A DNA stretch of 33,298 bases, taken from a virus. This document shows, in pieces, positions 5,001 to 29,944 of this stretch (position 1 is its first letter; every line of letters starts with the position of its first letter). Location of the stretch: the IMG/VR virus record IMGVR_UViG_3300046751_000059, positions 1 to 33,298 of that record. One strand, given 5' to 3'. The notes under the pieces are model-generated. The model was not told where the DNA came from. It was given only the letters and a program-made list of their open reading frames with translations, and did no database searches. A program made the translations under genes and the position numbers.

Positions 5001-6127
5001 ACGCCAGAATCACCACCTAGCTTAACCATATGCTTCTTAACGCTATCAGGTATTGCACCCTGCAATGTTCTTTTAACAGGGGATGGCACAGCTTTATACA
5101 TCCAGCTATCGGTAAACCAATTCTTAGCCATGCCGTGTGCATCTTCTGTATTAAGTTTTTGTATATCTTCTGCTCTGCGTATCTGTTGCTCTACGCGTAT
5201 GTTATTCAAATCTTTTTTGTTGTTATCTAAGGCAGTCATCTTTGCCTTTTTTTCATCACGCAAAGCTTTAAGTTCTAATTCATCAGTTGCTGATGCGGCT
5301 TTTTCTGCTGAATTTTTATGTGCTTCAATACGAACCTCTAGGTCATTAACGCTTTCTTCTAGTGCGTCTATACTCTTTGGAAGGCTCTCTCTGCGTGTTG
5401 ACAACACTTCATCTGCTTCATTGCCAAGTATTCTGGCTTCTCTGTTACCTACAGTTTCAGCGTCTGCTCGTGACAAATTACCAGTAACTTCAAGAAACTC
5501 ATCTAACTCATCATTAGTTTTGCGTATAGCTGACGCTCTCCTGCTAGCAGGAACAGATACAGCACCACCTATAAGGCCACCAACAACAAAAGCCGAACCA
5601 ATGTTCATAGCTACTTCTTCTGGTGTGGCTAACGGATCGAATGGTGCGCGACCAGCCTCAAGGCCAGCTTGTAATGTACCAACAGATGCGCCTGATCTAA
5701 GGAACTGACGCCCTAAACTTGCCGCCGCACCACCAAAGGGTAATGCTACAAGGTTAATTGGATCTATAATGCCAGCACCAAGATTATAAACAAATGGCGA
5801 CTCAGCCATAATCCTGCGGCGTTCTTGATTAAGATCAAGGCTGGTTTTCATTTCAGCCATATGTTTAGGATTACGCGCATTTATTAAATGCGATTCAAAC
5901 TCCTCATAACCTTCCATATCAGTTAAAGGATTGTAGCCAACTTCATACTCGTCACGATGCTTAAACTGGTCGCGTATAGCTTCTGCTATCGGTATATATT
6001 GATAACCAAGATTTGCTGGCAATGTGTCAGACCAAAACTTTGGCGACTCATCTTTGCCAACACCTTCCGAATACTGTACGCCAGTAATGGATTGTTTTGG
6101 TGTGCTTGCATATACGTTTGTTGACAT
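2051..6127 (-). CDS. Large internal virion (ejection) protein with zincin-like HELSH motif
   Basis: 1358 aa, in the place of T7 gp16: after the other two ejection proteins and before the fibre. Proteins of this type leave the capsid with the DNA and build a channel across the cell envelope. Residues about 235-330 and 465-560 are charged and look like coiled coils. Residues 727-731 read HELSH (context FVLLHELSHNIRR), the HExxH pattern of zinc metallopeptidases. The T7 protein instead has a lytic transglycosylase domain, which I cannot recognise here. The C-terminal 250 residues are rich in Ala, Gly and aromatics and may touch the membrane. The ATG at 6127 lies 19 bases after the preceding gene's stop. 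The virion role is fairly sure; protease activity is inferred from the motif only. Confidence 0.85.
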   Translation of the reverse strand: MSTNVYASTPKQSITGVQYSEGVGKDESPKFWSDTLPANLGYQYIPIAEAIRDQFKHRDEYEVGYNPLTDMEGYEEFESHLINARNPKHMAEMKTSLDLNQERRRIMAESPFVYNLGAGIIDPINLVALPFGGAAASLGRQFLRSGASVGTLQAGLEAGRAPFDPLATPEEVAMNIGSAFVVGGLIGGAVSVPASRRASAIRKTNDELDEFLEVTGNLSRADAETVGNREARILGNEADEVLSTRRESLPKSIDALEESVNDLEVRIEAHKNSAEKAASATDELELKALRDEKKAKMTALDNNKKDLNNIRVEQQIRRAEDIQKLNTEDAHGMAKNWFTDSWMYKAVPSPVKRTLQGAIPDSVKKHMVKLGGDSGVLLKMHQLGIASPKSVYQYAQTHNGEWLQVYSSMLQSFGQHSGKGVSTFTDLNLSNIDGSFTVFAKEANRKYINGIKGATKGEQEAIELMANFYKDWEARLRETGQIGNVKKYQSQIINKEANLQKTIDKISELEGRADAEKAGLSLNQTSYLEILRTKQARLESELIDLEVQIAAAGDESSVPAMEEVMFPRYWDRDQISRRRQEFAQVLFDWYKENPEIYVPNPDAQGGNFVRNISQLSDGEIQLRFGEKFGVKKIVTDAKESIPAIGDKKILGTFVYLDESTGIAYINRTRAYKRYKELQEAMSNPEQAYANLAKLDPAKIQYHQRKYMLDNFGKFKNFNDFQDFVLLHELSHNIRRQEYKEDLISLEMRVNDSAIKYMGEIHADIRNRVPLFLKKTLATDDASVMKRVDETIDEILGLTDVADDANAFYGQGKSKHFKHRKLDIPNALVFDFIEQDPLAVMRAYTMRTAPLYQFAKLFDGKSLDDLLEDIDDDMFAAGKSMKEMNRVRRDFTHMYDRVVGSVQRRDPTSFDMRAAKVLRDGAQLNYLGSAGFASMTDFAKIIMEHELKDIFRGLFGLISDNRLRMTMTEAHHAGEAREVIQGSSHMRHVDEISNNPFGEGNRIDRIYDKGVGKLKSGFFYLNGLGPLTNIMKKLDAVVRGHSIIQMSIRLADGNAKPFEIKYLARYGIDAGKAREFKKLVDDGIIENTKENGSGLWLPNSDKWPTEAKDLQMEFRSSMNSGIMNTILMGTPADKPIIVDGVAYVPFHIARKFGYEQDPRVRGYSRIENGLLGLPFQFYSYSFAAANKITAAYATGQARNRAVAAVAAMGLGYLGLELKNRNRPFVMDNMSIQDKIARSFDMSGLAALWSDSFYTAMSTSAAFGGPDLGGGFINDRFPQEESFLDGTVNLLGAGPSYGQDVLTGLYKFTTGDFGEGSKDIIRALPTARLWLWNDYVNEFSNVLAGTLPNQEQEDYTIRRF

Positions 6128-20693: not shown

Positions 20694-21080
20694 TCAATTC
20701 CCCTTCAAACTAAACCAGCCTAACTTGCCTGTCTCTGTACGAAGCCAGTAAGCATCACGATAACCCAAGCCACTAAACAAACCAATAAGCCCCTTAAATG
20801 ATCTGGCAATCTCAACTCTACCACCCAAACAAATAAAATCTACTAACCAAACAGTATCACCACCACCAGCAAACCAATCAGCATCGAACCTTCTAGTGGC
20901 TAAATATTTTTCCACCTGATCCGCATTAGGAAAACCCCAAGTAGCCAACACACCATCCTCTACCAAACACTGCCCTAAACTAATAGGACGAGCAACGTAC
21001 AATTCTAACTCTCTATCACCCCACCAACTGTGATAGTCACTGCTTTGAACTAAATGCTGTATCGTGCTTTTTTGAATCAT
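20694..21080 (-). CDS. HlyC-like acyltransferase-fold protein
   Basis: 128 aa. The layout resembles toxin-activating lysine acyltransferases (HlyC): a short-chain start, a central WFAGGGDTVWLVDFICLGG aligning with the HlyC stretch 'W-SGDR-WF-DW-APFG', and an end YWLRTETGKLGWFSLKGN aligning with its 'DPKTHVGK...F-GGK' region. The conserved His of HlyC could be His17 (DYHSWW). HlyC moves fatty acyl groups from acyl-carrier protein to lysines; here the target is unknown and the protein is shorter than HlyC (about 170). No toxin gene is present. Phages carry such short versions near terminase genes. Similarity is judged by eye. Confidence 0.5.
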   Translation of the reverse strand: MIQKSTIQHLVQSSDYHSWWGDRELELYVARPISLGQCLVEDGVLATWGFPNADQVEKYLATRRFDADWFAGGGDTVWLVDFICLGGRVEIARSFKGLIGLFSGLGYRDAYWLRTETGKLGWFSLKGN

Positions 21081-22646: not shown

Positions 22647-22669
22647 ATCGTTCAAAAAGGAGAACCAAA

Positions 22670-23041
22670 ATGGATGCTTTCAAAATATCTGCTGAAATGC
22701 GTGCAATACAATTCAATGCTATTGAAACAACCAAAGACATAATGGTTTGTAAAGTTAAAGATTTACCAGAACCAAAAGATAACAAGCTTAGTTTAATAAC
22801 AAATAAACATCTTGAAACAGGTTTGTGTGTAATGTTTCACACAACAGATGGATGCGTAATGGAAGTGCGTGGCTATGATATAGAAGGCAAAGAGTTTTCT
22901 TACAAGTTTCACTATGAAAAAGCACCTAAACAGCCAGTCACAATGAGGGCTGTAAGCGCATCTGGAAAAGCAATCAAACTTAAAGTCTCAGTTGACACAT
23001 CAGACAAACAAAAGTCTGGTGTTAAAATTATTCAAAAATAG
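22670..23041 (+). CDS. Unknown early protein
   Basis: 123 aa, soluble, MDAFKISAEMRAIQFNAIET at the start, with a beta-rich centre (LCVMFHTTDGCVMEVRGYDI) and a basic end. It has the GGAGAACCA start box and ends at the box of the DUF932 gene. No family recognised. Confidence 0.7.
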   Translation: MDAFKISAEMRAIQFNAIETTKDIMVCKVKDLPEPKDNKLSLITNKHLETGLCVMFHTTDGCVMEVRGYDIEGKEFSYKFHYEKAPKQPVTMRAVSASGKAIKLKVSVDTSDKQKSGVKIIQK

Positions 23042-23051
23042 GAGAACCACT

Positions 23052-23968: not shown

Positions 23969-23993
23969 TTGCTTCAACAATGGGAGAACCATA

Positions 23994-24671: not shown

Positions 24672-24865
24672 GTAATCCAGATGTAATCACAATCGAATGG
24701 TGTACTGATGATGTGATGGAGCATTGTCAGTGGCTAACAAATGAACAAGCCAGAGATGTACTGCAAGCAATGTATAACAATCATGATTGTTGTGTGGGTA
24801 TATCATGGGATGTAATTTTTTACACAGCGCAAGCTATATTTCCAGAAGGAGAACCAAATGAATGA
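24668..24865 (+). CDS. Small unknown acidic protein
   Basis: 65 aa, MSNPDVITIEWCTDDVMEHC at the start, with four cysteines, Trp-rich and acidic. Coupled by ATGA to the previous gene, and its end overlaps the start of the next by 8 bases. No family recognised. Confidence 0.6.
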   Translation: MSNPDVITIEWCTDDVMEHCQWLTNEQARDVLQAMYNNHDCCVGISWDVIFYTAQAIFPEGEPNE

Positions 24866-26164: not shown

Positions 26165-26355
26165 AGTACAGGGACAAGTCTGGATTCCCGAATCCATTCA
26201 CTGTAGTTAGAGATGTGCTGTTTTATAAACGCAGGACAGGCACACCAAAAACATTAGTGATCTTTGATGGCGATGTGTTCGCAGAAAAGATTGCACCATT
26301 ATTATTGGAGAACCACAATGTCATTTCTACTGATGGCGAGGGCAATCAAGGCTGA
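25993..26355 (+). CDS. PD-(D/E)XK nuclease, Holliday junction resolvase-like
   Basis: 120 aa from ATG 25993 (GAGG upstream). MASKSRAKGDYHERRFVEWL gives the N-terminal helix with Glu13. YSGDIIWEV gives Asp43, and VVEVKYRD gives Glu56 and Lys58, the E-D-ExK set of Hjc-like and related nucleases. A role in resolving branched replication intermediates before packaging fits the nearby Exo and annealing genes. It overlaps the replication gene by 38 bases. Confidence 0.7.
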   Translation: MASKSRAKGDYHERRFVEWLKALGFKAKRQPLSGALGGEYSGDIIWEVRGNPMVVEVKYRDKSGFPNPFTVVRDVLFYKRRTGTPKTLVIFDGDVFAEKIAPLLLENHNVISTDGEGNQG

Positions 26356-26986
26356 TATACCTGACTGCTATGCCAAATGGTTGATGGTCGTACTAGCTGA
26401 CCATGCCAATGAAGATACTCATGAGTGCTGGCCTAGCCTAGCTAGATTATCTGATCGCACACAGATGAGCGTACCAACTATAACTAGAAAACTTAACTGG
26501 CTTGAAGAACAAGGGCTGGTAACTAGGGTGCGTGGATCTAATCAACGATCAACTTTGTACACTATCTTTCCTATTGCAGAGAGCAACACCACTGTTGCAG
26601 ACAGAAACACCACTGTTGCAGAGGGAAACACTAACCTATCAACTAACCTATCAACTAAAAAGAAGAAGGCGGTGCCAGAAGATTGGTTGCCGAGTGAGGA
26701 ACTAAAGCAGTCTATTGATCTTAAGCTACAGGAGAACCAAGACCATGAGTATGAAACGAATCAATTCTGTTGTCACCACGCCAGCAAAGGAAGCACATTC
26801 GTCAACATCGACCTCGCTTACAGGGGCTGGTGCTATCGAGCCTTTAACTGGCGAGCAGATAGAGCAGGGTCTGGCAAGGCTACTGGAACTGGCAAGTCCA
26901 CACGAGGTAGACAGAAGGCTTCTCATTTCGCTGGAATCGCACACGGGCTATCCAGTAAGAGAAATAAGCAGGACGAGATTCACTGA
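26318..26986 (+). CDS. Replication initiator, lambda O-like (HTH_36 type)
   Basis: 222 aa. Residues 1-83 (KADIPDCYAKWLMVVLADHA, then CWPSLARLSDRTQMSVPTIT) form the winged helix of phage replication initiators. Residues 87-107 are three heptads A(E/D)xNTTV, encoded by 21-bp repeats that may be the origin. The C-terminal part (EDWLPSEEL, then HHASKGSTFVNIDLAYRGWC) resembles the usual end of this family, F-x-KG...A..W. That end overlaps the next gene by 242 bases in another frame. It has the GGAGAACCA box. Initiator role inferred from domain order. Confidence 0.72.
   Translation: MSFLLMARAIKADIPDCYAKWLMVVLADHANEDTHECWPSLARLSDRTQMSVPTITRKLNWLEEQGLVTRVRGSNQRSTLYTIFPIAESNTTVADRNTTVAEGNTNLSTNLSTKKKKAVPEDWLPSEELKQSIDLKLQENQDHEYETNQFCCHHASKGSTFVNIDLAYRGWCYRAFNWRADRAGSGKATGTGKSTRGRQKASHFAGIAHGLSSKRNKQDEIH
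26576..26654 (+). repeat. Iteron-like repeats inside the initiator gene, candidate origin
   Basis: Units of 21 bp begin at 26576, 26597 and 26618 (third partial), sharing GCAGA...AACACCACTGTT. Then comes CTAACCTATCAA twice in tandem (26631-26642, 26643-26654) and an A-rich purine stretch (CTAAAAAGAAGAAGG). Repeats plus A-rich tract in the middle of an O-like gene is how the lambda origin is built. Confidence 0.6.
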
Positions 26987-27383: not shown

Positions 27384-27406
27384 GTTTCAGTAAAGGAGAA
27401 CCACAC

Positions 27407-28240
27407 ATGGAACGCAAAGGTTTTATTGGCGGTAGCGATATGCGCCGCATCATGGATGGCGATTGGACATCGCTATGGGAAGAAAAGACAGGCAAGGTAG
27501 AACCTGTCGATCTGTCAGATAACCTAGCAGTACAGCTAGGTATAAAAACAGAAAACTTTAACAAGGATTGGTTTGCTAAACAGCACACAACATTAGAAGT
27601 TGAAACACTTGTTGCTTGTCATCATGACGTAGGCAATGGTCTAACCAAAGAAATGAATTGGGAAGGCGTACCACTCAAAGGATCAGTAGATGGATTTGTA
27701 CTTACTGATCGTCAGTACCATGATGAAATCATTGAGTGCAAACACACCTACGATATGAACAAGATGGAAGCATGTTTGCAAATGTACATGCCACAGATGC
27801 AATTCTATATGTGGTTGCATCAAGCCAAGGGCTGTTACTTATCAGTTATCTTTGGCAATCGCAGATGGGAATCTGTCTATGTCACTAAGGATTGGGACTA
27901 CATCCACAAGATGCAAGTTCACCTGACTGAGTTCTGGAGGTTTGTCAGAGATGAAACACGCCCTTTCGCAGATGAGCAGATACCACCTGTATCTATAGAC
28001 AAAATCAAAGTCGATGGCCTAGTACGCAGAGATGCGTCATCTGATAACGAGTTCATCAGCAGATGCCATGACTACATTGAGCATGAGGCTAACGCCAAGC
28101 TGTTTGAGTCAGCCAAGTCTGATCTGAAAGCTATGGTTAGTAACGATGAGCGAGAAGTTTACTGTGACCTTCTCACCATCAAGCGCGACAAGCGCGGATC
28201 ACTTCGTGTCACAGTCAACAAGGAGAACCAAGATGTCTAA
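27407..28240 (+). CDS. YqaJ-type exonuclease (lambda Exo-like)
   Basis: 277 aa. Digests one strand of double-stranded DNA ends to feed the annealing protein. Motifs: FIGGSD (residues 6-11), GSVDG with Asp95, and IIECKHT with Glu110 and Lys112, the catalytic D-ExK set. A later QMYMPQMQFYMWL holds the family's Gln/Tyr motif. It has the GGAGAACCA box and overlaps the annealing gene by 8 bases, so both are made together. Confidence 0.9.
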   Translation: MERKGFIGGSDMRRIMDGDWTSLWEEKTGKVEPVDLSDNLAVQLGIKTENFNKDWFAKQHTTLEVETLVACHHDVGNGLTKEMNWEGVPLKGSVDGFVLTDRQYHDEIIECKHTYDMNKMEACLQMYMPQMQFYMWLHQAKGCYLSVIFGNRRWESVYVTKDWDYIHKMQVHLTEFWRFVRDETRPFADEQIPPVSIDKIKVDGLVRRDASSDNEFISRCHDYIEHEANAKLFESAKSDLKAMVSNDEREVYCDLLTIKRDKRGSLRVTVNKENQDV

Positions 28241-29027: not shown

Positions 29028-29420
29028 ATGAGCGATTATGATAACACTAACAGAGGCGCGGCCTTCAAACCGTTTCCAGAGCAACAGTTTATTCTGCAAG
29101 GTAAGCTAAACATTATGGGTGATGATAGCCAAGTCGCACTTATCATGGCTGAATCCAAAGATGGCAGTAAGCGCATCGAGGTATATCAACGTGCTGGTGT
29201 TCTATTTGCAAACAAAGATAAGAGCGATGAAAACAAACAGCCAGATTATAGCGGACCACTTGACGGTCTGCATCAAGACTGGCGCATTGCCGCATGGAAA
29301 GAAATGAAAGGCGACAATGCCTATATGTCGCTCAGGGTTTCAGAGGTTCAAAAGAAACAAGATCAAGAGCCACAGGCTGAACCGTCTAGCAAACAGATCG
29401 ATGATGATGTACCATTCTAA
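29028..29420 (+). CDS. SSB-like single-stranded DNA-binding protein
   Basis: 130 aa. A beta-rich core (residues 18-105, with a Trp pair) precedes a Gln/Glu linker and the tip DDDVPF, the hallmark acidic C-terminus by which SSB proteins call repair and replication partners (DDDIPF in E. coli). The core is not a clear OB-fold by eye, so it could be another ssDNA binder with the same tip. Last gene of the early block. Ribosome site AAGGAT. Confidence 0.7.
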   Translation: MSDYDNTNRGAAFKPFPEQQFILQGKLNIMGDDSQVALIMAESKDGSKRIEVYQRAGVLFANKDKSDENKQPDYSGPLDGLHQDWRIAAWKEMKGDNAYMSLRVSEVQKKQDQEPQAEPSSKQIDDDVPF

Positions 29421-29422
29421 TC

Positions 29423-29452
29423 TGCGATAGTTAGGTGGTTCTCCCTATCGCA
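29423..29452 (+). ncRNA. Hairpin with anti-start-box loop after the early block
   Basis: TGCGATAG (29423-29430) pairs with CTATCGCA (29445-29452). The 14-base loop contains TGGTTCTCC (29436-29444), the exact reverse complement of the GGAGAACCA box found before eight early genes. It begins 3 bases after the SSB-like stop. Presenting such a sequence in a loop is typical of antisense RNAs. RNA status is inference. Confidence 0.5.
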
Positions 29453-29454
29453 TA

Positions 29455-29488
29455 GCGGGTGAGCAGTCGTACCATTCTGCTCATCCGC
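29455..29488. terminator. Bidirectional hairpin between convergent blocks
   Basis: GCGGGTGAGCAG pairs with CTGCTCATCCGC over 12 pairs, one G-T, with a 10-base loop. It lies between the early and late stops. No T run on either side, so termination may need help. The 10-mer GTACCATTCT occurs in its loop and at 29409-29418. Confidence 0.6.
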
Positions 29489-29491
29489 GAC

Positions 29492-29944
29492 CTAAATAGG
29501 GATCGCCAACAACTCAAGCCTAGCAATCAAACGATCTGCTCTATTGGTTACTTGCTTATAATATCTACTATCTTTTAACTCAGCCCCAGCAGTTTCAAAT
29601 TCTTCTGCTTCTATAGCCGCAATAAATTTCTTAAACTTAGACATACGCGGCCTACCCATATTGAACATTAGATTGCACAGAATATGTTGCAGTTCATCGC
29701 TCTTGTTATCCCAATCAGAATACAAGATCTTGCAATCCTCTATAGTTACAGCAATGTCTAGCGCAAATAGCTGACGCACACGCTCCTCAGATACATCTGT
29801 ACCTACAGGCTGACCATACTCAGGCTCACCCTCAAGGATTAAATGACCCACACCACACGTTTCCAAACCTAAGTGATCTAAATACACAGAGTAGACACAG
29901 CCCTCATCATCAGCAATCTCTTGCCGCAACGTATCTATGTTCAT
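29492..29944 (-). CDS. Endolysin, T4-type lysozyme (GH24)
   Basis: 150 aa. Cuts the glycan of peptidoglycan at lysis. The catalytic triad Glu14, Asp23, Thr29 has the same spacing (9 and 6) as Glu11, Asp20, Thr26 of T4 lysozyme, in a segment ending CGVGHLI. The end has the conserved NMG-R and Arg-rich helices. No signal peptide, so it needs the holin. Its start overlaps the holin stop by four bases. Confidence 0.93.
   Translation of the reverse strand: MNIDTLRQEIADDEGCVYSVYLDHLGLETCGVGHLILEGEPEYGQPVGTDVSEERVRQLFALDIAVTIEDCKILYSDWDNKSDELQHILCNLMFNMGRPRMSKFKKFIAAIEAEEFETAGAELKDSRYYKQVTNRADRLIARLELLAIPI

Follow-up and report, generated by a model that had tools for sequence, protein, structure and literature searches.

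The DNA analysed here is a podovirus-like phage sequence of 33,298 nt (IMG/VR virus record IMGVR_UViG_3300046751_000059, positions 1–33,298), the whole of which we call the window. Its minus strand carries genes for a T7-type connector, tail proteins and an internal virion protein. The plus strand holds an early region at about 22.1–29.4 kb that encodes a DUF932 protein, an O-like replication initiator with its neighbour, a YqaJ exonuclease, a single-strand annealing protein (the name is taken from the preliminary description of this DNA and from an annotated Pelagibacter phage homologue) and an SSB. The SSB gene (29028..29420, plus strand; phrog_18154) is the last early gene, and its stop codon occupies 29418–29420. 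At the DNA level, no match to the region was found in 50,697 phage records.

Immediately behind this stop codon lie two hairpins. Hairpin 1 of the proposed RNA (29423..29452, plus strand) starts after a spacing of two bases, not three as had been described, and consists of a stem of 8 perfect pairs (29423–29430/29445–29452) and a 14-nt loop (29431–29444). The loop contains UGGUUCUCC (29436..29444, plus strand), which we call the anti-box or seed; the preliminary description had recognised it as the exact 9-nt antisense of a start box shared by early genes, and this proved correct. Hairpin 2 (29455..29488, plus strand; 12-bp stem 29455–29466/29477–29488) is terminator-like and is followed by a convergent lysozyme gene on the minus strand. 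The 85-nt stretch with the hairpins has a folding energy of –36.9 kcal/mol (z = –4.9). When the RNA 29421–29492 is folded in isolation, pair probabilities of 0.82–1.0 are predicted for the stem of hairpin 1, and the anti-box is unpaired with a mean probability of 0.70, the loop having weak internal 3-bp pairing; the seed is thus located in the loop, as had been proposed, but its predicted display is mostly, not wholly, open. In a longer RNA (29300–29492) the anti-box region 29434–29445 is predicted to pair with SSB codons 29375–29386, so one may speculate that release of the RNA, or translation of the end of SSB, would matter, the seed being hidden until one or the other occurs. Rfam returned no family matches for 29300–29600 of the window, with no match to RF01695 up to E = 5, and for eight relatives it gave nothing above gathering score except one tRNA.

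The start box GGAGAACCA is found nine times in the 33,298 bases when both strands are counted, one of these being the antisense copy TGGTTCTCC. In dinucleotide shuffles the mean is 0.13, and 0 of 100 shuffles reach nine. The remaining eight exact copies, which had been listed in the preliminary description and are confirmed here, all stand on the plus strand 1–5 nt upstream of early ATGs (gaps of 2, 2, 2, 1, 2, 5, 3 and 2 nt, in order). They precede ORF 22670 of unknown function (box at 22659..22667; predicted duplex with the loop –15.9 kcal/mol), the DUF932 gene 23052 (23041..23049; –20.4), ORF 23994 (23983..23991; –21.1), ORF 24858 (24848..24856; –15.9), the O-like replication initiator gene 26318 (26307..26315; –19.0), ORF 26745, the partner of the replication gene (26731..26739; –16.8), the YqaJ exonuclease gene 27407 (27395..27403; –19.2) and the annealing-protein gene 28233 (28222..28230; –15.9). 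The starts of late genes in this phage lack the box. The complementarity is specific in terms of predicted energy as well: compared with –15.9 to –21.1 kcal/mol for the eight boxed starts, the loop gives –6 to –10 kcal/mol with unboxed early starts, including that of SSB itself (–6.2), and a mean of –7.0 with late starts, among which one, at 21080, reaches –15.6 through scattered pairing.

One antisense match of 9 nt within a UTR this short is improbable but could be luck, so relatives were examined. Four scans of viral contigs with the annealing protein as query yielded 241 loci including the window, of which 197 have an SSB stop codon followed by at least 70 nt of UTR and were usable; by sequence these fall into 33 UTR groups. 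The phages that carry the element appear to form an uncultured, mostly marine, podovirus-like group. To place the element without reference to the box, which was not an input, we ranked every 60-nt plus-strand window of each group representative by the frequency with which its 8-mers are antisense to the last 18 nt before an ATG. Within the 33 kb of the window the SSB UTR is the sole plus-strand site antisense to the top ribosome-binding-site 8-mer (a single site that corresponds to 5 of the 3324 overlapping scan windows), and it is the top and effectively the sole site in loci L006, L048, L039, L043, L045, L055, L073 and L158 too. In all UTR groups with an anti-box the element sits directly behind the SSB gene. 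Some loci show further features. At L195 10867–10960, and also in L056, L057 and L058, there are two successive hairpins, each with GTTCTCC, that is, a doubled anti-box, and then a T-rich tail. In L048 a tRNA gene (1770–1840) lies just upstream of the first boxed early gene. In the boxless lineages L016–L022 (e.g. L021 from 4682) the UTR reads TATCTCC immediately after the SSB stop, and GGAGATA stands at some of the starts, possibly a further pairing code.

Among the relatives the box varies at positions 8 and 9, which are not part of the Shine-Dalgarno core, and over a broad phage group the loop changes with them. Box GGAGAACCA is paired with UTR TGGTTCTCC in the window, most of L001–L015 and L024/L028, and with UTR TGGTTCTTC, via a G-U pair, in L023–L037; box GGAGAACTA goes with UTR TAGTTCTCC in L006–L008, L043, L047–L049 and L051–L053, and box GGAGAACA with UTR TGTTCTCC in part of L054–L072 and in L153 and L195. 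When loops were swapped between 19 UTR groups, the match of boxes to their own loop at position 8 was 0.68 versus 0.33 shuffled (p<1e-5), and at positions 8 and 9 together 0.37 versus 0.16 (p=2e-5), in shuffles that, like the presence/absence tests given below, carry no correction for kinship. Orthologous boxes taken alone behave in the same way, with a match in 13 of 15 collapsed lineages for YqaJ (p=3.5e-5) and in 11 of 13 for the annealing gene (p=3e-4). Between the window and L004, the YqaJ start keeps the nine letters of the box as flanking bases and the distance to the ATG drift. The near sister L006, whose annealing protein is 94% identical to that of the window, has T8 in place of C8 in 6 of 7 orthologous boxes; its loop has changed from G to A in step, and the hairpin stem around the loop has been wholly replaced. 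When mean duplex energies are compared across every start, whether boxed or unboxed, the result is weaker though still significant (p=0.0003), because unboxed genes dilute the signal and C-rich UTRs are favoured.

On a tree of the annealing protein, parsimony requires at least 5 changes of the loop. This tree offers at most 4 independent contrasts; each either agrees with the expectation or is neutral, and no contrast runs against it, but their number is too small for significance. There are exceptions as well: the anti-boxes of L042/L045, L039 and L093 match only a minority of their own boxes. Boxes and anti-box also come and go together, the anti-box being found in all 16 groups with at least four boxes and in none of the 7 groups with no box or one (Fisher p = 7e-6 at a cut-off of at least three boxes). 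The proposed RNA and its targets have changed together, and this strongly supports base-pairing between the anti-box and the start boxes as real. It had been suggested in the preliminary description that the AACCA part of the box serves for recognition and that changes in it should be matched by the loop; in the relatives they are, and AACCA is the co-evolving, specific portion of the box.

The 3′ ends of the relatives are directional. Of the 33 UTR groups, 20 have a U-tailed terminator, a hairpin with a T-rich tail, on the early strand, and 1 has it on the opposite strand; this speaks for an RNA that is read from the early strand and ends right behind the anti-box. The proposal that the 12-bp hairpin could end the RNA in the window fares less evenly: the hairpin exists, and many relatives have the U-tailed form, but the U-run after hairpin 2 is absent in the window and in L006, perhaps because a two-way terminator serves both convergent genes. 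The G-U asymmetry between the strands in hairpin 1 had also been considered as evidence for the strand, but it depends on the register chosen for the stem and was dropped in favour of the U-run asymmetry. Only about half of the groups show the anti-box within a clear hairpin loop; elsewhere it lies in an open or differently folded stretch, and in some (L093, L132 and L070) it is predicted to be buried.

Taken together, these features suggest the following mechanism. The 3′ UTR of the early operon behind SSB would yield an RNA roughly 70 nt long or longer, produced from the early mRNA's 3′ end by cleavage or by termination, that stops at or near hairpin 2 and displays the anti-box, usually in a hairpin loop or open stretch. 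The seed would pair over 8–11 nt with the box GGAGAAC(N8 N9), which holds the Shine-Dalgarno sequence and stands 1–5 nt before the AUG, and would thereby cover the ribosome site and lower translation of the boxed early genes, here those for DUF932, the replication pair, the exonuclease, the annealing protein and three proteins of unknown function; SSB and the late genes would be spared. The 15-nt 3′ tail of 16S rRNA, for which we used a generic bacterial sequence, gives –6 to –10 kcal/mol with the boxed starts. Because it pairs more weakly than the loop, the RNA could outcompete the ribosome, and initiation on the boxed early genes should then be blocked. Since such an RNA would be made only after the whole early operon has been transcribed, the result would be a delayed negative feedback on the early genes. 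To this reading, an antisense RNA derived from the 3′ UTR that occludes early ribosome-binding sites, we give a probability of roughly 0.7. It is from sequence that we infer its release as a separate molecule, its action in trans, the repression and the timing of the switch. With somewhat less confidence, we also favour a broader view, in which one RNA would be the counterpart of T4 RegA throughout the group: a single seed would silence eight or more early replication and recombination genes via their shared 9-nt start box, and seed and boxes would form a code that diverges between lineages, so that the RNA of each lineage would act best on its own early genes.

The pairing could, however, take other forms or have other results. 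Seed and targets can share one early transcript, and the same sequence evidence fits a control element in which the 3′ UTR loop folds back on the boxes of the uncut early mRNA and no free small RNA exists. This is unlikely, since one loop is unable to serve eight boxes per molecule simultaneously, the targets are up to 6.8 kb distant and, for the close analogue OppZ, long-distance pairing in cis has been experimentally excluded (PMC7398697). Covariation, moreover, speaks for pairing and not for its result, so the RNA might activate or stabilise its targets or direct their processing, for example through RNase III cutting of the duplex, instead of plainly blocking ribosomes; in T4, indeed, RegB inactivates early mRNAs by cutting GGAG in translation initiation regions (PMC3014915). 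Still, the pairing covers the Shine-Dalgarno sequence and ends 1–5 nt before the AUG, the classic position for blocking initiation, and we regard these outcomes as quite unlikely. That the main targets are host mRNAs with GGAGAAC starts, the phage box being merely a host-like Shine-Dalgarno sequence of which GGAG is the ordinary core, is very unlikely given that positions 8 and 9, outside this core, track the phage's own loop and that late genes of the same phage leave the box unused.

Two further explanations dispense with the pairing altogether. The early and lysozyme genes of the window converge here and hairpin 2 resembles a terminator, as would be expected of an ordinary bidirectional terminator whose loop matches the boxes by coincidence or as a generic anti-Shine-Dalgarno sequence; yet the loop is kept though stems are replaced, and the co-variation and the joint presence and absence of boxes and anti-box contradict such a reading, which we hold to be highly improbable. 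Finally, a phage protein might bind at the box, in the manner of RegA in T4, with the inverted copy in the hairpin as a decoy in DNA or on the opposite strand, where the hairpin would display the box itself in its loop. This seems barely credible, as the strand preference of the U-tailed 3′ ends (20 groups against 1) favours the early strand and a protein site would not require the transcribed loop to hold a complement of the box that follows it at two non-core positions.

A scan of genome collections for hosts gave only three MAG contigs, of which two are from Rhodobacterales and one is from an Opitutae bin, and no host can be named on so weak a result. At 5448–5520 of the Rhodobacterales MAG contig L329, the start box GGAGAACAA occurs three times and the anti-box TGTTCTCC twice, with a U-run right after the second anti-box, which gives a weak hint of the host group. 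A distant parallel with cultured hosts is seen in the Pelagibacter phages Lederberg EXVC029P (L243 9826–9881) and HTVC035P (L242 7656–7707), which have a hairpin of 13–14 bp with a 27-nt U-rich loop behind an SSB-like gene. The loop is antisense to repeated start motifs of the same phages, AAAGGGAAA occurring four times and AGAAAGG six times. Among 80 kin, however, the loop hardly varies and most loci are without enriched boxes, so we treat this hairpin as a lead and not as support. By the same k-mer test, no such element was found in Pelagibacter phage Hodr (portal 61% identical) or in Methylophilales phage MEP301.

Known phage base-pairing RNAs mostly have one or two phage genes, or host genes, as targets. 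The phage group described here appears to possess an antisense switch that targets several of its own replication genes at once, detectable from sequence alone because seed and targets co-evolve. In a literature search outside which most subscription journals lay, we found no phage 3′ UTR RNA with a repeated start box as its target. If the switch is as proposed, the early shut-off for which T4 uses proteins would also be brought about by an RNA. The group offers a ready set for comparative tests, in which natural covariation eases the design of compensatory mutations, and the 3′ ends of operons in uncultured viruses are worth scanning for seeds antisense to their own start sites.

Several known systems resemble the proposed RNA in part. 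Bacterial trans-acting sRNAs, such as AbcR of alphaproteobacteria, direct C/U-rich seed loops against Shine-Dalgarno sites of many mRNAs; they are independent loci that act on many unrelated host genes, whereas in the present case a single operon contains both seed and boxes, which evolve together. The c4 RNA lies on the same strand and in the same transcript as its targets, upstream of icd/ant, and serves temperate-phage immunity. As cited in PMC2864571, this antisense RNA of P1 and P7 (RF01695; Citron and Schuster 1990) is a phage precedent for antisense action at start regions; the candidate described here would likewise be a phage RNA with a short antisense match to start regions, although the RF01695 model is unmatched in it. 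The T4 protein RegA, which competes with ribosomes at the AUG region and so represses about 30 early mRNAs (PMC3014915), is similar in its effect, as one factor lowers the translation of many early phage mRNAs, which is what we propose for the RNA; RegA, however, recognises A+U-rich unstructured sites as a protein, and the candidate recogniser here is an RNA seed. The proposed mechanism is closest to that of OppZ and CarZ of Vibrio cholerae, autoregulatory sRNAs derived from 3′ UTRs that repress their own operon (eLife 2020, PMC7398697). Like them, the element occupies an operon 3′ UTR on the same strand with an intrinsic terminator (U-tailed in those 20 of 33 groups and not in the window) and is complementary to translation initiation regions of its own operon, with eight exact 9-nt targets and covariation in relatives. 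In both cases an RNA from the operon's 3′ end would pair with an initiation site of its own transcript and cut translation while some genes of the operon are spared, as is predicted here for SSB. The bacterial RNAs are processed by RNase E and depend on Hfq, and OppZ has its pairing site at oppB (PMC7398697), whereas the present element belongs to podovirus-like phages and would address many targets at once, through a box repeated in eight genes.
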